The notes beneath the pieces were generated by a model that searched no databases, was not told the DNA's origin, and was given only the letters and a program-made list of their open reading frames with translations. Position numbers and translations under genes: made by a program. A stretch of 38,024 nt of DNA, from positions 1 to 38,024 of the IMG/VR virus record IMGVR_UViG_3300048625_000328, one strand, 5' to 3'. The DNA comes from a virus. This document shows, one piece after another, positions 72-38,024 of this stretch. The first letter of the stretch is position 1. The number at the start of each line of letters is the position of its first letter.

Positions 72-141
72 CGCTCCGTTGCGGTGTCAGGATGCTGGTA
101 AGGGTTCTATTGTCCGCTGGAGCCGAAGCCTTGGGTTCCGC
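16..141. repeat. Terminal direct repeat, left copy
   Basis: These 126 bases are identical to 37899-38024. The simplest reading is an assembly overlap showing that the contig is circular or circularly permuted. The copy covers the 3' end of the dUTPase-fusion gene and the hairpin-rich gap before the zinc-ribbon gene. True physical direct terminal repeats are possible but less likely, because the boundary cuts through a coding region. Confidence 0.9.
60..102 (-). terminator. Nested hairpin after the early operon
   Basis: cttaccagc at 60-68 pairs with gctggtaag at 94-102. Inside it, caccgc (69-74) pairs with gcggtg (81-86) around a 6-base loop. The structure begins 5 bases past the TAG stop of the dUTPase fusion, which suggests a terminator or mRNA 3'-end element. 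No U tract follows, so intrinsic termination is uncertain. The arms carry the same TGGTAAG word that is clustered at 3595-3789. The structure is repeated at the right end of the window. Confidence 0.5.
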
Positions 142-979
142 GGGGGTGGTTTGTGAGTTGGGTTGTTTCGGTGGTGTGGTGTTCGGCTGTCCAGTTTGGC
201 ATTAGGATTAGTTGGGCTAGTCGTTCGCCTTTTCGGATGGTGACGGTTTTTCGGGTTAGGTTCCAGACGCCTGCGTAGAGTTCGCCTCGGTAGCCTGGGT
301 CGATTATGCCTTGGTTGACCATTAGGCCGTGTTTGCGGAGTGTGCTACTGCGTCCTGTGAGCATGGCCCAGGTGTTGGGTGGTAGTTGGATGGCGATGTC
401 GCTTGGTACGTCTACGAATTGGCCTGGTTTGATTTTGGTGGTTTGGGTGACGTAGAGGTCTAGACCTGCGTCGTCTGGGTATGCTCTTGTGGGGGTTTGT
501 GCGGCCGCGGTGAGTCTTTTATATGGGAGTGGGGTTGTGCGTGGTCGTGGTCCTACGATGGCTTCCGTGACCCATTTGGTGGCTTCTCTGACCCCTATTG
601 GGCTGAGTTGGTAGGTTTTGAAGTGTGGGTCGGTGTTCCAGGCGGTTGGCATGGCCCATGTTGGGGTGCCGTCGGTGAGGAATGCGACTTTCTGGCCGTT
701 TTGTAGGGCACGTTCGATTTCTACTGGCACTCCCCAGGATTTGGCTCCTCTTGGCCAGATTGCGATTACGGCTTCGGCTTGCTGTTGGGCTGCTTGGTTG
801 ATGGTTTCGATGGTTGGGTCTGGTTCGGCGTATTTACCCAGCCAGAAGGCTTTCCCTGGTTGGAACAGGTGGTGTTTGGTGTAGCCGAGTTCGGTTTGTA
901 GGTGCCCGATTGTGTTAGCCACTGCCAGGTTGATTTCTCCGCCTGCTCGGTCTATTGGGTAACTTAGGTAGATTAGCAT
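107..979 (-). CDS. dut: Nucleoside 2-deoxyribosyltransferase-like / dUTPase fusion
   Basis: This 290-residue protein has two domains. Residues about 1-105 resemble the nucleoside 2-deoxyribosyltransferase/Rcl fold, with a YLSYPID start, AEAVIAIWP, and SWGVPVEIERA whose E87 fits the catalytic Glu. Residues about 150-290 form a complete trimeric dUTPase with all five motifs: PDDAGLDLY (168-176), TGRSST (208-213), GIIDPGYRG (224-232), RLAQ (253-256) and RGTQGFGSSG (280-289). It should hydrolyse dUTP to dUMP; the first domain probably cleaves or transfers deoxynucleoside bases. The ATG at 979 overlaps the stop of the upstream small gene. It ends the purZ-mazZ operon, which suggests nucleotide-pool control. 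The dUTPase call is firm and the first-domain substrate unknown. Confidence 0.9.
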   Translation of the reverse strand: MLIYLSYPIDRAGGEINLAVANTIGHLQTELGYTKHHLFQPGKAFWLGKYAEPDPTIETINQAAQQQAEAVIAIWPRGAKSWGVPVEIERALQNGQKVAFLTDGTPTWAMPTAWNTDPHFKTYQLSPIGVREATKWVTEAIVGPRPRTTPLPYKRLTAAAQTPTRAYPDDAGLDLYVTQTTKIKPGQFVDVPSDIAIQLPPNTWAMLTGRSSTLRKHGLMVNQGIIDPGYRGELYAGVWNLTRKTVTIRKGERLAQLILMPNWTAEHHTTETTQLTNHPRGTQGFGSSGQ

Positions 980-1164: not shown

Positions 1165-1447
1165 TTAGGTGTTCGTTCCAGAGTGCGGTGGTCACTTGGT
1201 GGATTCCGAGTTCTGCCTGGTCGTGGTTTTCGGCTTGTGCTTTGTAGTGAACTTCGGTGGTGCCTACGCGGTGCCAGCCTTGGATGTGGATTAGGCCTCC
1301 ACTGTAGAGTAGCCTGATTTCGGCGTTTGGCATGTTTGGGTTGCGGAATTCGTTACCTAGGACGTTTACGGTCCAGTTGAGGTTTTCGAGTTCGGTTTTT
1401 GCGGTTTTGTAGACGTCGTGTGGGTCTGGTTTGGTTGTGGTGGTCAT
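1157..1447 (-). CDS. Hypothetical protein in the purZ-mazZ operon
   Basis: This 96-residue protein was not recognised. It begins with a Thr-rich stretch and looks like a small alpha/beta domain, with a segment around EIRLLYSGGLIHIQGWHRVG followed by a helix. The ATG at 1447 overlaps the mazZ stop as ATGA, implying translational coupling; an ATG three codons upstream (1456) is possible. Position between mazZ and dut suggests, but does not show, a role in nucleotide metabolism. Confidence 0.75.
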   Translation of the reverse strand: MTTTTKPDPHDVYKTAKTELENLNWTVNVLGNEFRNPNMPNAEIRLLYSGGLIHIQGWHRVGTTEVHYKAQAENHDQAELGIHQVTTALWNEHLNG

Positions 1448-1776
1448 AGTGGCCATCCGCCTTTCTCTCTGATTCGTTGTACCATTTTGATGTAGATTGC
1501 GATGTCGTGTAGGGTGTCGTCGCTTACTGGTTTGCCGTTTGCTATGGCGGCGGACCAGCGGCCGAGTTTCCCTACGACGTAGAAGTAGATGCCTAGTTCT
1601 GCGGCTTCTGCGTCGGTGACTTGCTGTTTGGAGATGTGGGCTAGGTCGCGTCCGATGTTTATCAGGTCGACGGCTCGTCCGTTGCCTCCGTATTCGATGA
1701 TTTTTGGTAGTAGTGGTGCGATTTCGTTGTGGGCTTTTTCTAGCCACCAGTTTTCTAGTTCGGTTGGGTTTATCAT
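1444..1776 (-). CDS. mazZ: MazZ-like (d)GTP pyrophosphohydrolase
   Basis: This 110-residue all-helical protein resembles the MazG-like family found next to purZ in aminoadenine phages. It carries an EAAE motif (E57, E60) and a second acidic cluster SDDTLHD (D86, D87, D91), which fit the Mg-binding residues of MazG folds, with the segment FYVVGKLGRW between. In characterised systems MazZ converts dGTP (and GTP) to the monophosphate, feeding dGMP to PurZ. Its ATG overlaps the purZ stop as TAATG, so the two are translationally coupled. A longer upstream frame exists but is only the purZ shadow. dGTP specificity is inferred from the purZ context. Confidence 0.82.
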   Translation of the reverse strand: MINPTELENWWLEKAHNEIAPLLPKIIEYGGNGRAVDLINIGRDLAHISKQQVTDAEAAELGIYFYVVGKLGRWSAAIANGKPVSDDTLHDIAIYIKMVQRIREKGGWPL

Positions 1777-2897
1777 TAGGCTACTAGTGCTGTTGATGGG
1801 CCTGTGGTGATTAGGGTGACTGGTACGCCTGCGTCTTTTTTGACTTCTTCGATTAGGGTGTTGAGTTTTTCGAAGGTTGGTGCGTCCATTTGGTTCCAGT
1901 GGTCCATGTTTTTGATTTCTGGGAGTTTCTGGTCGGCCATGGTTAGTGCGACCATGATACTGGTGAGGGTGTTTGGGTTGGTGATTCCTTGTGGGTTGGC
2001 TCCGTTGGCGATTGCTGCTTGGCGGATTAGTTCTGGGTCCCATTCTCCGACTCGTCTGGTTTTGTGGGTGACGGTGGTTTTTTCGGTTGGTAGGCCTAGG
2101 TTTTCCCAGGAGGTTTCGCCTTTGAGTGCTCCGCTGTTGCCTGCGACGCGGATTGGGTAGACGCGGGCTACTAGCCACACTGCTAGGTGTTCTACTCCTT
2201 GTGACCAGGGGTTGATGCCTGCCATGGCTAGGAAGTCGATGGCTCGGGCGTCGCTGCTGGTGCATTGTGGGTAGTGGCCTGCGTGTAATCCTAGGCCGTA
2301 TCCTTGGGTGCCTTCAATTACGATAGTGGTTTTGGCGGTGTTTACCCATTCGTTGATGAAGCGGAGGCCGTCGTTGGCGTTTAGTACTACGGCTCCGATT
2401 TTGTCGGCTAGGGCTAGTGCTTCTGGGTGGTCGATGAACCTGGTGGCGGTTCGCATGATTCGGTCGGCTCTGGCGGCTCCGATGCCTTTACCTGTGGAGC
2501 CGATTTTACCTGTCATGTCGAGTTCGGTTTCGGTGTTTTTGTGTTGCTGTTCTAGGATTGTGGCTTCGCCGCTGATGATTAGGCGGTTTACTGGGTGTCC
2601 GTGTTCGCGGAGGTGTGCCACTTCGTATTCTAGGACGTCGAGTTCGATTTCGGACCCTGGTGCTAGGTAGAGGGTGGTGTCGTGGTTTACGGCTGCTCCT
2701 ACTGGGATTGTGCGGAGTGGGAATGCGGTGCCGTTTTTATCTAGGGCGGTATGTCCTGCGTTTGGCCCTGCTACTCTGATGTTGAGGGTGCGGTGGTCGG
2801 TGTCGGTGAGTTGCTGGTTGGTTAGGATTTGGGCGGTGACGTGGCCTTTACCTTCGGAGCCGAACATGGCTCCTGTTACTACGTGGATTACTGACAT
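1776..2897 (-). CDS. purZ: PurZ, phage aminoadenylosuccinate synthetase
   Basis: This 373-residue protein is homologous to adenylosuccinate synthetase but shorter than cellular PurA (about 430). The P-loop reads FGSEGKGH, with Ser14 replacing the catalytic Asp of PurA; this substitution is the published hallmark of PurZ. GPNAGHT (44-50) keeps the His. GSTGKGIG (133-140) and EGTQG (195-199) match nucleotide- and phosphate-contacting loops, and the PurA segment after EGTQG is changed to GLGLHAGHYP. PurZ joins dGMP and aspartate to give N6-succino-2-amino-dAMP, which host PurB converts to dZMP. It is the first gene of a coupled purZ-mazZ pair and strongly predicts a 2-aminoadenine genome. Confidence 0.95.
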   Translation of the reverse strand: MSVIHVVTGAMFGSEGKGHVTAQILTNQQLTDTDHRTLNIRVAGPNAGHTALDKNGTAFPLRTIPVGAAVNHDTTLYLAPGSEIELDVLEYEVAHLREHGHPVNRLIISGEATILEQQHKNTETELDMTGKIGSTGKGIGAARADRIMRTATRFIDHPEALALADKIGAVVLNANDGLRFINEWVNTAKTTIVIEGTQGYGLGLHAGHYPQCTSSDARAIDFLAMAGINPWSQGVEHLAVWLVARVYPIRVAGNSGALKGETSWENLGLPTEKTTVTHKTRRVGEWDPELIRQAAIANGANPQGITNPNTLTSIMVALTMADQKLPEIKNMDHWNQMDAPTFEKLNTLIEEVKKDAGVPVTLITTGPSTALVA

Positions 2898-3487: not shown

Positions 3488-3535
3488 GTTCTGTCTCCTG
3501 GTTTTGGCGGGGGTCCTGTTCCCTGCTATATTTCT

Positions 3536-3588
3536 ATTCAACCATATCCTGTGCCATTTTGTCAAGTTCGTGCTTTGTGGGCGTGTCG
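3536..3588 (-). promoter_or_regulatory. Promoter A with upstream CGACACGCC box
   Basis: Reading the minus strand, the CGACACGCC box is at 3588-3580, the -35 TTGACA at 3565-3560 and the -10 TTGAAT at 3541-3536 with a TGG extension. The spacer is 18 bp. It would drive the unit from the 119-residue gene through purZ, mazZ and dut. A weak stem-loop (GGG, loop AACAGGA, CCC) starts a few bases after the predicted transcript start. Confidence 0.8.
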
Positions 3589-3793: not shown

Positions 3794-6478
3794 CTATTCC
3801 GAACCCATTGCACGGTTGTAAACAGCCTCTGCGTAGTCTTTCGGAAGTTTACGGTACCACCCTTTACGGCGTGTCCCAGGCAGTGCGAATGTTTTCCCCT
3901 TGTCCAGGGTAAGTGCATCTGCTTGCTGCTTGAGTGCCTGCTCGGTCTCAGTTCGGGCTTCCACTTTGTGGTTTCGGTCACGTGCCCAGGCTTGTGCGAG
4001 CAGCGGTATGGCCACCCACACTTCGATTTGTTCTTCATCAGATAGGGTGGGGGTCCCATCCCACTCGGTGTTCCCAAGTGACCTGACGAAAACTGGGGTA
4101 TCAATACCTGCGAAACGGCCCGAATCAGACCCTGGCAGTGGTGACCCAGCAAACCCCCAAGTGCGTATCGCCCAGGGGAGGATTTGAGTGGTCAAGGTGT
4201 TGTCCTTGTCCAACCAACCCATAGTAGACTGCTGCTCAATCCACCCCTCAACCCTCGTAGCGTATTCACCAAGGGTTTCGAAGGCATTCTCCTGACCAGA
4301 GAGGTGGTCGAGGAGGCTAGCACCCGCCCTAAGCACTGCCAGTTTGTCGTTCTGGCGTCCAGAGCCTTTCCGTTTGACACGTTTCAAAACCTCCAATACA
4401 CGGTCGTTCACTAGCAGGGCCTGTTGTACGTACCAACCCGCCAGAGTGGATAGGCCGCCACGGTCCTCAGGGTACTCCGCCAACAGGTCTAACACGTCTT
4501 CCCACTGAGGCCAGTCACCCCTGGTGGAGAGTCGGCCCTTAGGGCTTGGGACGTTCAACACGACGGAACGGTCCAGCAACGCTTTCTGCTGGTTCATACC
4601 GAGGCTTTCACCCGTGATGAAGATTGGAGCCACCACCTGGGTGTTTTTGATACCGCTCCTGTCCATGTCCATTTTAGAGGCGGTTCCGTTGCTGGTACTG
4701 GCACGCAGCAGTTCGCCGTAGGGTTCCAGGCTGTCCAGGTCGTCGGCCCAGACGATTCCGTTGCGGTTCGCTGAGGAGTAGTCACGTAGCACTGGCCTGG
4801 TTGGGGCGATTTGGCCGCGTGTGTTGCCGTTCAACTGCACCATCAGGTCGAAGAACCCGTTGGTTTTACCTGATTCGGAGACGGCTTCAACACCGAAGAA
4901 TGGGAATAGACTGGTGCGGGCTTGGATTTGCGGTTTCAACAGGCAGGCAGCCCACCAGGCACCGAACACTGCGGTTACGGTTTCGTCCTGGAACGTCAAC
5001 ACTTCACGCAGTACGGCTTGGGCTTTCACCCAGGTGTCGTTGAACCCGTAAACGTATGGGGCGACGTCACGTTCAACCAGTTTAGGGTCGGCCACCACTC
5101 CTGCGTCTTCTTTTTTCTTGAACCCGTGGACGTTAATCAACCCGTCGTGGGTGACGAATGCGTCCAACTCGTCGTGCCACCCCAGAGTGTCCACGATGTG
5201 TACCTGTGGTGGTTTTTGTGAGTTTAGGTACCTGAGGATACGGACACCTGTACTGGTGCGTGGCATGGCGTTGAATGGTGGGTCGGCACTTAGGCCCATG
5301 GCGGCTAACCATTTACGGATTGCACGGTCGTCACCCAATACTTCTGCGTTGAGGGTGGCGTCAATAGTGGTGCCATTCCAGTACAACCTGACCCAGTACA
5401 TGCGGCGGTCGAGTTCGTCCACAGCCACGCCGAGGGCTTCAATGTCGAAATCTGCGAATGGTGCCAGGGCTGGGACGTTCATGTCGTCTTGCTTCACCAC
5501 CACCTGGCAGTAGAGGATTCCGTCTTGGCTGGTTAGGTACCCTGTGTGTTCGGTCGCTGCCCGTTCAGGGTGGTTGGCGGTTTCGGTGTTCCAGATTGAG
5601 TTGGCGGTTTTCTCCAGTTCGAACTGGTCTAACGGGTCGTTCAGTAGGGTGTTGGCCAGGGTCACTGAGGCGATGAACTTGTCACGGTCTCCTCGGTGTT
5701 GCTTGGCGTAGTGACCTGCCACCCTAGTCAACCAGTCGTTACGACCCCCTTGGGCTGGTGGGTTGGTTAGCAGTTCTACCAGGGAGACGTTAGAAGTTAT
5801 TGGGACCACTGGTTGGTGTGCGGTTTTAGCGATAGTGGTTGAGGTTTTACGGTCGGCGGTGAACTGGGTACCTGATTCGGCCCAGATTGCGTCCACTTCT
5901 GTGTCGGTTAGGACGTGTTCAATGCCGAGGTTGATGTCGGTCACTTGGTATGGTTTGCCTGTGGATTCGTGCCTAGTGGGTGGCATAACTATATACGCTC
6001 CACGGCCCACTTTGATATCCAGTCCGCGGCCGAGTGCTGCGGTTTTCGGTTGGATTTTGGCGGCTTTAGTGCCTGGGGCGATTCGGTAAATTAGGTGACT
6101 GTTCCCGTTGCCTCGACCACTCAGATGGGTGCGGGTGGTTGGGAATGCGTCAAGTTTGGTGCCTCCGTTTTGGAGGTCGATGTCGAATGCGATTCGGTCG
6201 TCGCCTAGGTTGGCACCTACGCCTGCGTTTGGTACGCGGGTCCACCACCCGATGATACGTTCTGGGTCTGTGGTGCCGTCCCACGCTCCGTGGCCGTCTT
6301 TACCACATTCACCTTTACAGACCACGCCTGCTTCGTGTGCTCGTGGGAGTAGTGGGGCTTTAGACCCTGGGCGGAGTGGGAACACGTTCCAGCCGAGTTC
6401 GGCCAGTTCTAGGGCTGCTAGCAGGGTGTGACCTGGTGCTGCTTCCACTTGGGTGGTTTGGGTGGCGGTCAGTTTCAT
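3794..6478 (-). CDS. Primase-polymerase / helicase
   Basis: This 894-residue replication protein has two parts. The N-terminal third is an archaeo-eukaryotic-type primase/polymerase: FDID (D99, D101), GNSHLIYR (H128) and GLDIKVGRG (D154) fit the three catalytic motifs. A Walker A loop, GVEAVSESGKTNG at 529-541, begins an ATPase/helicase region. Between them is a linker domain typical of prim-pol fusions. It should make primers and unwind DNA at the fork. The start at 6478 is chosen because a purine-rich AGAGAGACAGAG lies just upstream; the frame extends 20 codons further into a structured gap. The iteron cluster follows immediately downstream. Confidence 0.88.
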   Translation of the reverse strand: MKLTATQTTQVEAAPGHTLLAALELAELGWNVFPLRPGSKAPLLPRAHEAGVVCKGECGKDGHGAWDGTTDPERIIGWWTRVPNAGVGANLGDDRIAFDIDLQNGGTKLDAFPTTRTHLSGRGNGNSHLIYRIAPGTKAAKIQPKTAALGRGLDIKVGRGAYIVMPPTRHESTGKPYQVTDINLGIEHVLTDTEVDAIWAESGTQFTADRKTSTTIAKTAHQPVVPITSNVSLVELLTNPPAQGGRNDWLTRVAGHYAKQHRGDRDKFIASVTLANTLLNDPLDQFELEKTANSIWNTETANHPERAATEHTGYLTSQDGILYCQVVVKQDDMNVPALAPFADFDIEALGVAVDELDRRMYWVRLYWNGTTIDATLNAEVLGDDRAIRKWLAAMGLSADPPFNAMPRTSTGVRILRYLNSQKPPQVHIVDTLGWHDELDAFVTHDGLINVHGFKKKEDAGVVADPKLVERDVAPYVYGFNDTWVKAQAVLREVLTFQDETVTAVFGAWWAACLLKPQIQARTSLFPFFGVEAVSESGKTNGFFDLMVQLNGNTRGQIAPTRPVLRDYSSANRNGIVWADDLDSLEPYGELLRASTSNGTASKMDMDRSGIKNTQVVAPIFITGESLGMNQQKALLDRSVVLNVPSPKGRLSTRGDWPQWEDVLDLLAEYPEDRGGLSTLAGWYVQQALLVNDRVLEVLKRVKRKGSGRQNDKLAVLRAGASLLDHLSGQENAFETLGEYATRVEGWIEQQSTMGWLDKDNTLTTQILPWAIRTWGFAGSPLPGSDSGRFAGIDTPVFVRSLGNTEWDGTPTLSDEEQIEVWVAIPLLAQAWARDRNHKVEARTETEQALKQQADALTLDKGKTFALPGTRRKGWYRKLPKDYAEAVYNRAMGSE

Positions 6479-6500
6479 CTCTGTCTCTCTGATTTGGGGT

Positions 6501-6564
6501 GCGAGGGGCCTGGTGTACCAGTGTTGAGGTGGGGGCACTGGTTCTTGGTTTCCAGACCCCTCGC
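6501..6564 (-). promoter_or_regulatory. Two-level stem-loop between SSB and primase genes
   Basis: The arms 6501-6513 (gcgaggggcctgg) and 6552-6564 form a 13-bp stem with one G-U pair. Inside, accagtg (6517-6523) pairs with cactggt (6536-6542) around a 12-base loop. The element fills most of the 112-bp gap between the SSB-like stop and the primase start. A short ctagt/actag dyad overlaps the SSB stop. No U tract follows on the minus strand, so it looks more like an attenuator, processing site or protein-binding RNA than a simple terminator. Confidence 0.6.
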
Positions 6565-9243: not shown

Positions 9244-9253
9244 TCATATTTCT

Positions 9254-9307
9254 ATTCAAACATATTCGTTGTCAGTTTGTCAAGTTGGCTGTTTTCTTGG
9301 CGTGTCG
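9254..9307 (-). promoter_or_regulatory. Promoter C with upstream CGACACGCC box
   Basis: On the minus strand the CGACACGCC box is at 9307-9299, directly after the helicase stop codon. The -35 TTGACA is at 9283-9278 and the -10 TTGAAT at 9259-9254. The spacer is 18 bp. It would drive the 9199 gene through the small genes, RecA-like ATPase, SSB and primase. Confidence 0.82.
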
Positions 9308-11786: not shown

Positions 11787-11796
11787 TTGTATTACT

Positions 11797-11851
11797 AGTT
11801 TACCAGACTTGTTGACTACTTGTCAAGTTAGTTCGTGTTTCGGGCGTGTCG
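11797..11851 (-). promoter_or_regulatory. Promoter D with upstream CGACACGCC box
   Basis: On the minus strand the CGACACGCC box is at 11851-11843, directly after the zinc-finger stop. The -35 TTGACA is at 11826-11821 and the -10 TAAACT at 11802-11797 with a TGG extension. The spacer is 18 bp. It would drive the 110- and 86-residue genes, the small membrane protein and possibly the HTH gene and helicase. Confidence 0.82.
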
Positions 11852-12070
11852 TCAAAACCCCCTCACCCTATCCGACCCACCAGAAATACCCAAATACGAA
11901 ACCACCCAAGCCCACCGCTCCGCCTGGAACTCCAACCGAACCGTAGGTGACGTGCTATTACTACGAACCCGCTGGTGGTAATACGCCTTACGGCCCGTGC
12001 TCAAATCGTAACAAGGACGACACAACCCACGCTTATGAACCTTACGGTCACAGCCACTCTCGCACTGCAT
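11852..12070 (-). CDS. Small Cys-rich zinc-binding protein
   Basis: This 72-residue protein begins with MQCESGCDRKVHKRGLCRPC, giving Cys at 3, 7, 17 and 20 in a spacing that fits one zinc site, as in HNH or ribbon-type proteins. No HNH catalytic residues follow. It starts at TAATG over the polymerase stop, so it is coupled to the polymerase. It is probably a nucleic-acid-binding accessory protein. Confidence 0.75.
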   Translation of the reverse strand: MQCESGCDRKVHKRGLCRPCYDLSTGRKAYYHQRVRSNSTSPTVRLEFQAERWAWVVSYLGISGGSDRVRGF

Positions 12071-14178
12071 TACTTCTCACCCCACTTCTTCACGTCCACA
12101 TCACCAGGGACACCAGGGAAAAACTCCGACCACAACTCACGGCCACGGTCCCGAGCAGCAAAAGCAATTCGCTCACCAACCTCACCCTCAGGGAGCAACA
12201 TCACAATCGAGTCGTGAATCAACATCACCACACCAACACGGCCCAAAGGTTCCAAACTGCCAGCGTCCTCCACCACAAAGTCACCCAACTCAGCCGTCAC
12301 CGTGGCCTCAACATCAAGCCACCAGTCAATACCAAACTGAGCCAGGTTAGGCTGCACACGCTGGTTGAACGCCTTGTGTGTGTCCTCGTCAGGTTGGAAC
12401 CAACGACGCTCCCCATTACGAGTCTGCAACCAACCCAAGCCGTGAGGGTTCGAACGCATACGCTTCTCCACCACGTCCATGTGCTGGCGAATTGCCTGCT
12501 GGAACTCAGGGTACAACGCGTTCCAGTCACGCACCAACACCCGAGCCTCCTCCAAAGTCAACACCATACCAGTTTGCGTCTCAATATCGGCCTGCAACTT
12601 CTCAGCACCAACACCGAAAATCAACGAGAAATTCGCACGTTTAGCCACGTTACGCATTTGACCCCACTTCGGGTCGTCAGGTGTCACCCCAAACAACTGG
12701 GTCGCCGCGTCACCATGTAAGTCCTGGTCCTCGTTAATGAGTTTCAACATACGGGTGCAGTTGGCGAATAGAGCAGCCACACGCAACTCAGCCTGGGCCA
12801 AGTCCAACTCCCACAACTGGAACCCGCGAGGCACTCCACGACCAATCAAAGCACGAGGGGTCAAAATGTCGGATAAAGCACCACCAGCCAAGCGGTAGTC
12901 ATGCGGAATCGCCTGCAACTGCACACGTTCCACCGAGAACCGACTCGATACCGTACCATTTTGACGTACACTCGCACGGAGACGCCCATCAGGCCCAACC
13001 ATTGAAGCCCAACCAGTGTACCAACGCGAATCGGCGGTCTGTAACTTTTGCAAATCACGCCACTGAGCAGCAGCGGGTACACCGTCTTTAGCCATCTTCT
13101 CCACGATGAACGCATTCACCTGGGGTTCGCCCTTATCAGTGGTGGCGTACGCTGGGAGGCCTAAACCTACCACGCCGTTCTTAGACCCACGGCCAAACCA
13201 GTAGTGCTTAGCCATCGGTAGGGTAATCGGCTTGAAAGGTAGCGAATCAGCCAAAGCATGGAAACGCTTCTGAATTACCACAGCCTGGGCGGCGGCCTGT
13301 TCAGCGTCGAACGGCAGGCCACGCCTCTCAATGCGGAACAACATCAAAGTGGTTCGCAACCTACGCTCAATCGCCTGGTGTACGTTCATCTGGCCGCGGT
13401 CCTCACGGAACCAATCAGCCTCACCCGCGGTCAACGCCCATAACTGGTGGTAGTACAGGCGAATAGTTAGGCGGGCGTCCTGGTCCGCGTACGGGCCAAT
13501 CAACTCCCACGGTACCAAATCCCAACGACCCGATGGCAGTTTCCCCTTGGTGAGGTGGTTCTTCACCTTGGCGGACTCGTCCGTCTCAGCAGCACCCCAC
13601 AGCCTGGCGGAGGTTGGCTTCAAACTGGTGGTTTTAGATTCAGGCCACATCAGGTGGCAGACGTTCTGGGTGTCCCAAATCGTCCACGCACTCAGGTCAA
13701 TACCCTGACCTGGCCAGCGGCGGATACCCGCTTCCATGAGGTGCAGGTCGAATTTGGCGTTGTGGAACACGAACCCGTTCTTCTTACCTACCAGGGTGAG
13801 CCACTCCCTGAGGTCGTTCCACTGGTCTTCGCCCAGGTTGGTGCTTTCACCGAACAGGACGCCCTGCCCGTTGTCTTCAGGTTTCCCAGTGCCCACCACG
13901 CCCTGGTCAAACGGCCATGCGAAAGAAACCACGGGGAGGACCTCGGAGCCGCGAATCGGCTCTAAGCCCGCCGAAGACACGTAAGTGTCACGGAGACCCG
14001 TTCCGTGGTCACGGGCACATGCTCCGAACGTCCCAGACGTGTCCACCCAGGCTACGGAGACTACAGCCACCCGTGCACCATCGTCCACGAAAAGACCAGA
14101 AGTCTCAGTGTCCAAAGCCACGGGGCTGTAAGGTAGGATACCCTCACGGGCAAGTTGAAGCAAATCAGAAGGTAACAT
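12070..14178 (-). CDS. dpoZ: PolA-family DNA polymerase, DpoZ-like
   Basis: This 702-residue enzyme has a 3'-5' proofreading domain and a family A polymerase domain, without the 5' nuclease of bacterial Pol I. Exonuclease motifs: LDTET (D23, E25), HNAKFD (N140, D144), YADQD (Y230, D234). Polymerase motifs: A, DLAQAELR (D459); B, RNVAKRANFSLIFG (K513, F517); C, IHDS (D656). Two positions differ from the usual family A pattern: F521 replaces the O-helix Tyr, and S657 replaces the Glu after the catalytic Asp. With purZ and mazZ in the genome it is the expected Z-tolerant replicative polymerase. Polymerase identity is secure; the DpoZ label is inferred. Confidence 0.88.
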   Translation of the reverse strand: MLPSDLLQLAREGILPYSPVALDTETSGLFVDDGARVAVVSVAWVDTSGTFGACARDHGTGLRDTYVSSAGLEPIRGSEVLPVVSFAWPFDQGVVGTGKPEDNGQGVLFGESTNLGEDQWNDLREWLTLVGKKNGFVFHNAKFDLHLMEAGIRRWPGQGIDLSAWTIWDTQNVCHLMWPESKTTSLKPTSARLWGAAETDESAKVKNHLTKGKLPSGRWDLVPWELIGPYADQDARLTIRLYYHQLWALTAGEADWFREDRGQMNVHQAIERRLRTTLMLFRIERRGLPFDAEQAAAQAVVIQKRFHALADSLPFKPITLPMAKHYWFGRGSKNGVVGLGLPAYATTDKGEPQVNAFIVEKMAKDGVPAAAQWRDLQKLQTADSRWYTGWASMVGPDGRLRASVRQNGTVSSRFSVERVQLQAIPHDYRLAGGALSDILTPRALIGRGVPRGFQLWELDLAQAELRVAALFANCTRMLKLINEDQDLHGDAATQLFGVTPDDPKWGQMRNVAKRANFSLIFGVGAEKLQADIETQTGMVLTLEEARVLVRDWNALYPEFQQAIRQHMDVVEKRMRSNPHGLGWLQTRNGERRWFQPDEDTHKAFNQRVQPNLAQFGIDWWLDVEATVTAELGDFVVEDAGSLEPLGRVGVVMLIHDSIVMLLPEGEVGERIAFAARDRGRELWSEFFPGVPGDVDVKKWGEK

Positions 14179-16877: not shown

Positions 16878-16886
16878 TATATTTCA

Positions 16887-16938
16887 ATTTAACCATATCT
16901 GTTGCCTGTTTGTCAAGTTCGATGTTATCGGCGTGTCG
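16887..16938 (-). promoter_or_regulatory. Promoter B with upstream CGACACGCC box
   Basis: On the minus strand the CGACACGCC box is at 16938-16930, the -35 TTGACA at 16916-16911 and the -10 TTAAAT at 16892-16887 with a TGG extension. The spacer is 18 bp. A second, inverted half (cgacac at 16948-16953) makes a 6-bp dyad with the box. It would drive the 16835 gene through the resolvase, exonuclease and polymerase. Confidence 0.82.
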
Positions 16939-19121: not shown

Positions 19122-20369
19122 TTATGCTACCTTCAGTTTGACCGCGCCGTATAGGCAACCGCTTACCACGTTTGGCTGGATAAGGGTTCCAACGGTGCTT
19201 GGCAATGCGCCAGTGACTGAGGACTGGCTGTAACCAATTGCGTTTGTGTAAGCACTCATAGTGTTGGCGTGTTGCTGGGCGAACGGGGTACCAACATACG
19301 TGATTGAGCCAGAAGCAGCCGTCTGCGCAACTAGGGCAAGGCAGTAGTTACCAGCGGCTAGGGTTCTGCTAATGGTGATTTGTTTAGCCCCCGTAGTAGA
19401 AACGTCAACAGTGCCCGCGTCTAGCACGAGAGTGGTTGGTGTTCCGTTTATATCGGCGTTATAAATACCTAAACGTACTACGGAGGTTGCGGCCGCGCCT
19501 GCTACCCAAATACCAATGGCGGCGAAAGACGTTGACGCTGCCAAAACTAGAGGGGTGAACATTAGCGAGTTCAAGGCTGCCGCAGAGCCGCTACCTAGGT
19601 AGTATCCAGGTGGCGACATCCAGTAACCTGAGCGTGGTGGGAACACGTAACTAGGGATAACCTGTGCGCTACCGCCTGTGCCACTGGCAGCAGCCGTGAT
19701 ACGACCGAACGCATCAACGGTTAGGTTAGTATTCGTGTACGAACCCGCCGTAACCGCGGTAGTGGCTAACCCGAGTTGCGCTGCGGTTGAAGTACCAGTG
19801 TTAGTCAACTCACCAGAGTCTACGCCTACCACACCCGAGGGTCCTTGGGCACCCGTGTCACCAGTTAGTCCTTGTGGGCCTTGAGGGCCAGTGGCTCCGT
19901 CAACGCCGTTGCTACCCGCTGGGCCTGTAGCACCTGTAGCACCAGTTGGACCCGCTGGGCCTTGTGGGCCTTGTTCACCTGTGTCGCCCTTGGGACCTGT
20001 TGGACCAGTTGGACCAGTTAGACCCGTTAATCCTTGAATGCCTTGAGGTCCAGTAGCACCCGCTGGACCAGTTAGCCCAGTTGGACCAGTTAGCCCAGTT
20101 GGACCCGCTGGGCCTTGAATACCCTGCGGGCCTGTTAGCCCGATTGGGCCACTCCCCCCCGCTGAACCTATTGGTCCTTGTGGACCTTGAGGTCCTGCTG
20201 GTCCCTGCGGCCCAGTAGCCCCAGTTGGTCCTGGTACAGTGGAATCGGCACCCGTAGGACCAGTAGGTCCCACAGGTCCGCGTTCCACCACTACCGAGGT
20301 GATATTAGAAGCCACTGCTGGTACTTTCACAACATCGGGGGTTGGTACGTTAATGATGATGTCGTTCAT
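19122..20369 (-). CDS. Collagen-like tail fibre
   Basis: This 415-residue protein has a short N-terminal part, about 49 Gly-X-Y triplets at residues 31-179 (rich in GPT, GPQ and GPA), a linker, and a C-terminal globular domain of about 220 residues with beta-rich Ser/Thr/Gly sequence. Collagen-like repeats form trimeric rods in phage fibres; the C-terminal domain likely trimerises and binds the receptor. It overlaps the upstream gene as ATGA. Confidence 0.85.
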
Positions 20370-37898: not shown

Positions 37899-38024
37899 GG
37901 GGCCTGGGTGGGTCGAGACAGTGACGTTTCCCAGGCCCCTATCTTACCAGCCACCGCTCCGTTGCGGTGTCAGGATGCTGGTAAGGGTTCTATTGTCCGC
38001 TGGAGCCGAAGCCTTGGGTTCCGC
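37899..38024. repeat. Terminal direct repeat, right copy
   Basis: Identical over 126 bases to 16-141. It includes the 10-bp stem (37899-37908 with 37930-37939) and the second hairpin, then the 3' end of the dUTPase fusion. Joining the copies links dut to the 37871 gene in a single minus-strand unit. Confidence 0.9.

Follow-up and report, generated by a model that had tools for sequence, protein, structure and literature searches.

The window, by which we mean the whole stretch of DNA analysed, is a single viral contig of 38,024 bases with a G+C content of 55%. Nearly all of its long open reading frames lie on the minus strand, and ARAGORN detected no tRNA genes in it. A 126-bp direct repeat is present at both contig ends (16–141 and 37899–38024, plus strand), pointing to an assembly of ~37.9 kb that is complete or circularly permuted. 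There is also a perfect 25-nt inverted repeat at the contig start (1–25 versus 47–71, and again at 37930–37954); together with the first 15 bases, this looks like an inverted assembly artefact. On the minus strand close to this end lie purZ (1776–2897) and the gene that follows it (1444–1776), at the positions given in the original prediction, which had read the two as a purZ–mazZ pair. The stop of purZ and the start of the next gene share one base within TAATG (1774–1778), and the coupling that had been described for this junction is present. Further downstream on the same strand are a small open reading frame of ~96 amino acids (1157–1447), which overlaps the gene behind purZ through ATGA and had no family match, and a 290-amino-acid fusion gene (107–979). 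A primase-polymerase (3794–6538, minus strand) and a DNA polymerase (12070–14178, minus strand) lie upstream.

The purZ gene encodes a protein of 373 amino acids (MSVIHVVTGAMFGSEGKGH), a shortened homologue of PurA (PF00709) in which residue 14, within MFGSEGKGH, is the serine named in the original prediction. The protein scored 334.1 bits against the PurZ model NF038379 (cut-off, 300) and fell far below the cut-off of every PurA equivalog model (139 versus 395 bits for TIGR00184). The catalytic aspartate of PurA (Asp13) is replaced by serine in all 31 aligned PurZ sequences. When phage records were searched by tblastn with the window protein, 195 matched, all at 60% identity or less, and the best match in the PDB was 7vf6 (E = 1.2e-87). 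This is a PurA-like enzyme from a phage, and its printed sequence matches that of locus L013. A tree placing this protein against both PurZ and PurA had been proposed; the one that we built by maximum likelihood from 31 rows covers the PurZ side of that proposal, with the PurA outgroup left out. The window grouped with three IMG/VR contigs (L011, L018 and L019; support 100/99), and its group, which also holds Wayne, Ghobes, Sucha, Hiyaa and Parvaparticeps, was split from the phiVC8, Acinetobacter, Stenotrophomonas and Alteromonas PurZ sequences with support of 100/100. By its scores and placement the protein is a true PurZ, a predicted succino-2-amino-deoxyadenylate synthase of the PurZ0 subgroup defined in PMC12884076, together with those of Wayne, Ghobes and Archimedes.

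The alignment also bears on the nucleotide donor. Asp322, in the segment ALTMADQ of the window protein, aligns with TMLD of archaeal PurA; it is kept in all PurZ0 rows, and the phiVC8-type rows are without a clear counterpart. The matching region of PurA is its guanine-binding region, which makes GTP a plausible donor for the window PurZ0. Tong et al. (2023) reportedly assign GTP to PurZ0 and ATP to PurZ. These preferences are the reverse of those given in PMC12884076, which are ATP for PurZ0 and GTP for PurZ.

The fusion gene at 107–979, on which the original prediction was silent, joins an NDT-like N-terminal domain to a dUTPase-like C-terminal domain. The C-terminal DutZ domain (residues 154–290; 110–520, minus strand) is recognized by the dUTPase model TIGR00576, against which the protein scored above the cut-off, and by PF00692 (E = 4.4e-31). 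The N-terminal DmtZ domain (residues 1–140; 560–979, minus strand) is homologous to that of Wayne gp53 and is a predicted deoxynucleoside-monophosphate hydrolase/transferase. Five of its residues (Y4, D10, P41, N61 and E87) are invariant in a 7-row alignment that includes the window, and they correspond to Y6, D12, P57, N77 and E103 of Ghobes DmtZ; mutating Tyr6, Asp12, Pro57, Asn77 and Glu103 of the Ghobes enzyme altered its activity (PMC12884076). According to the same paper, DmtZ acts as a hydrolase on dAMP and as a transferase of deoxyribose phosphate to the Z base, the DmtZ–DutZ fusion of Wayne hydrolyses dATP and dGTP, and dutZ is present in all PurZ0 genomes of the published survey (PMC12884076). 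After purZ itself, the fusion is the most specific marker of the PurZ0 pathway.

The original prediction had also pointed to a PolA-family polymerase lacking a 5′ nuclease elsewhere in the genome, and this is borne out by the 702-amino-acid protein at 12070–14178, which scored 823 bits against the DpoZ model NF038381 (cut-off, 350). Its 3′–5′ exonuclease and polymerase motifs A and B are intact, the 5′ nuclease domain is absent and motif C reads HDS, as in Wayne. This is a Wayne-type DpoZ, which we predict to prefer dZTP over dATP. The primase-polymerase belongs to the same replication module (PF09250, E = 3.4e-26; phrog_5177, 1085 bits). Across these genes the window resembles Wayne, a phage of Arthrobacter, with identities of 50% for PurZ0, which falls in the same clade, 50% for DpoZ, 43% for the fusion protein (gp53) and 54% for the primase-polymerase. 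DatZ was found in neither the window nor Wayne, Ghobes or L011 with a single query that finds it in four phiVC8-type phages, and a DpoZ of the Wayne type without datZ and mazZ agrees with PMC8599892. No adenylosuccinate lyase was found in the window, and host PurB is therefore assumed. Ghobes differs in encoding its own lyase (L005, 1–195), as does Hiyaa (L009, 12432–13805).

The gene behind purZ begins at the shared A of TAATG, in a translationally coupled arrangement, and encodes a protein of 110 amino acids, predicted to be all-helical, that we call p110. Its relatives in isolate phages amount to 31 records, from phages of Microbacterium (18), Gordonia (6), Streptomyces (5), Curtobacterium (1) and Micrococcus (1), beyond which the next matches are noise (E = 0.6). 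The number of purZ records equals that of p110 in Microbacterium, Gordonia, Streptomyces and Curtobacterium, and the two genes are adjacent in the annotated isolate loci examined, Micrococcus included. Searching IMG/VR with p110 alone recovered 19 loci, every one with purZ just upstream and dutZ downstream, and a much diverged member of the family (L014) used as the query found Z phages only. Bacterial genomes yielded a single match, on a contig also bearing purZ. That contig (L046; CAIOKD010000330.1) was binned in a Verrucomicrobia MAG; it carries purZ, p110 and dutZ, and is therefore probably a binned phage. As the one bacterial contig matched thus has purZ and dutZ as well, an occurrence of p110 outside Z phages was rejected. 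The p110 family, so far unnamed, is found only in PurZ0 phages.

Most of its relatives are longer proteins in which p110 is the C-terminal domain and the N terminus varies; in the window it stands alone. The Gordonia phages Ghobes and Archimedes share with the window a PurZ0, a p110 domain right behind purZ, and DutZ and DmtZ nearby; they differ in that DmtZ and DutZ are separate genes and the p110 domain has an N-terminal extension. Other Z phages fill the slot after purZ in other ways. Those of the phiVC8 type have MazZ-2 or DUF550 there, and the Arthrobacter Z phages, which are without p110, have DUF5664; the DUF5664 protein of Wayne, which stands where the window has p110, is a dATP/dGTP hydrolase (PMC12884076). 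That one gene replaces another at this constant position is our chief reason for thinking that p110 acts on nucleotides, as a probable nucleotide-pool enzyme.

The label of MazG-like pyrophosphohydrolase, or MazZ, that the original prediction had attached to this gene did not hold up. No family matched p110 in NCBIfam (E = 0.1), Pfam (E = 0.1) or PHROGs (E = 0.01), and its best PHROG rows were families without known function at E = 0.01 or worse. The Pfam MazG model PF03819 had no match across the window even at E = 10, with control genomes positive, and the DUF5664 model PF18909 had none either. Profile alignment by hhalign against MazZ-2, DUF550 and DUF5664 gave P values of 0.36 to 0.58, and a sequence search of the PDB likewise lent MazZ no support. 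The four-acid metal site of MazG (ExxE...ExxE/D) is not kept: D87 and D91 are the only invariant acidic residues of the p110 family, with E60 nearly so, and they are outnumbered by invariant tryptophan, lysine and arginine residues. The dATP/dGTP hydrolases tested in PurZ0 phages were DutZ and DUF5664, not MazZ (PMC12884076). We suggest that the name MazZ be withdrawn for p110, in favour of a PurZ0-linked family that is probably a nucleotide-pool enzyme.

Two AlphaFold models of p110 had pLDDT values of 89.7 and 92.3 and consist of four to five helices. Foldseek found no significant match to either model in the PDB. Among viral models, the named proteins matched outside the p110 family were DUF6378 proteins (probability up to 0.97, TM ~0.54). 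These phage proteins (PF19905) have a similar predicted fold and share with p110 a KxxR pattern followed by DxxxDxxxY; they have no significant sequence match to it. Alignment by hhalign covered exactly this stretch, and its P value of 0.009 is weak, yet better than those obtained with MazZ-2, DUF550 and DUF5664. An in-house fold re-alignment returned weak MazG matches (Z of 4 to 5; for 2yxh, Z = 5.3 with an rmsd of 2.8 over 68 residues) at the level of unrelated helical bundles.

We consider the chances about even that p110 is a far-diverged, all-helical pyrophosphohydrolase, either MazG-type or related to DUF6378, that would make dGMP and so be a MazZ by function. The slot that it shares with MazZ-2, DUF550 and DUF5664, the confident helical fold, the link to DUF6378 in both structure and motif, and the MazG entries among the weak fold matches all point in this direction; they are offset by the missing four-acid signature, the failure of PF03819 to match and fold scores no higher than those of unrelated bundles. 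It is rather unlikely that p110 is instead a non-hydrolytic partner of PurZ0, such as a subunit or regulator with affinity for PurZ0 or for nucleotides. A partner would fit the strict linkage and translational coupling to purZ, the N-terminal extensions that vary among most relatives and are lacking in the window, and the preponderance of invariant tryptophan, lysine and arginine; against this, its replacement by a DUF5664 hydrolase in Arthrobacter Z phages suggests an exchangeable enzymatic role.

The genome is also depleted of particular tetramers. AGCT, CCGG and GATC do not occur in the 37.9 kb of the window and GCGC occurs 7 times, and these are the four lowest of its 256 tetramers; when 34.4 kb of coding sequence from the window were shuffled among synonymous codons, the expected counts were 127, 166, 104 and 121, respectively. 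The nearest relative is L011 (IMG/VR contig 3300042352_000874), with identities of 67% for PurZ, 88% for p110, 74% for DpoZ and 64% for the DmtZ–DutZ fusion. It shares the absence of AGCT, CCGG and GATC over its whole length (L076 and L077), and differs from the window in that GTAC is also nearly gone (2 seen versus 89 expected) and GCGC avoidance is weaker. No loss of AGCT, CCGG or GATC was seen in Wayne, which is unlike the window in this respect, in Ghobes, or in the ordinary phages ArV2 and Spartoi. GATC is present 4 times in phiVC8 versus 152 expected, and CCGG is missing from the 40 kb examined of DMU1, a Z phage of Acinetobacter, versus 110 expected.

Two of the three absent sites, GATC and AGCT, contain A. 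Their complete loss from both the window and L011 casts doubt on the resistance to many restriction enzymes that the original prediction had expected. Among coliphages, site avoidance amounts to 2.4% in those with modified cytosine versus 55.8% in those without (PMC6286503), so the loss of GATC and AGCT would be unexpected if Z protects. It suggests one of three things: some enzymes cleave Z-DNA at GATC and AGCT, the sites had been lost before Z arose, or Z substitution is lacking or incomplete.

The capsid protein of the window is 59–62% identical to those of the Arthrobacter phages ArV2 and Hum25, and its terminase is closest to those of Gordonia phages, which makes an actinobacterium the probable host. 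The annotation of ArV2 does not list purZ. Elsewhere in the window, a 51-nt repeat (ATATTTCTATTCAA...TTTGTCAAGTT) occurs in four copies that are 63–80% alike (3528–3578, 9246–9296, 11789–11839 and 16879–16929). The copies are spread across the early region, for the most part seemingly in intergenic positions, and are possibly promoters or operators. Near the tail genes, 19122–20369 encodes a protein of 415 amino acids with a long collagen-like Gly-X-Y repeat.

The presence of PurZ0, a Wayne-type DpoZ and a DmtZ–DutZ fusion in one complete-looking genome gives good support to the prediction of a 2-aminoadenine (Z) genome. We regard it as highly likely that the window is a PurZ0-type Z phage of actinobacteria. 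Its virion DNA would very likely contain Z, with the enzyme activities transferred from those of Wayne and Ghobes (PMC12884076). In the proposed pathway, PurZ0 would couple dGMP with aspartate, and adenylosuccinate lyase and kinases of the host would convert the product to dZTP; DmtZ would remove dAMP and rebuild dZMP from free Z base, and DpoZ would copy the genome with dZTP replacing dATP. As a further nucleotide-pool enzyme, p110 may feed PurZ0, probably by dNTP hydrolysis, a step that we put at roughly an even chance. The Z-clusters of S-2L and phiVC8 (PurZ, MazZ and DatZ) likewise make dZTP and remove dATP; the phiVC8 type differs from the window in its PurZ clade and in having DatZ and MazZ, neither of which was found in the window.

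A bolder combination, somewhat less likely than not, is put forward tentatively: p110 would represent a new class of Z-pathway enzyme, confined to PurZ0 phages and supplying dGMP or removing dATP with a catalytic site unlike that of MazZ, and Z would have failed to shield this lineage at GATC and AGCT because some natural restriction enzymes cut Z-DNA there. We consider it improbable that, with the Z genes in place, the virion DNA carries adenine, or Z only in part, so that exposure to restriction at A-containing sites remains. Zero counts of GATC and AGCT in two genomes, set beside the little avoidance seen in modified-cytosine coliphages (PMC6286503), would agree with such DNA; however, the core Z genes are all intact, the known host-side gaps are covered by housekeeping enzymes, and the avoidance may be older than Z or a nuclease may cut Z-DNA. 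That the window PurZ is an ordinary adenylosuccinate synthetase using IMP is barely credible: despite its homology to PurA, it has Ser14 in place of the catalytic aspartate, scores below the PurA cut-offs and above that for PurZ, and falls in the PurZ0 clade.

As a PurZ0-type Z phage, the window would add to the predicted Z genomes an uncultured lineage with head genes like those of ordinary Arthrobacter phages, and p110 is a specific gene family that travels with PurZ0 only. The genome also poses a pointed question for the standard view of Z as a shield, as it has a full set of Z genes, yet every GATC and AGCT has been purged from it.
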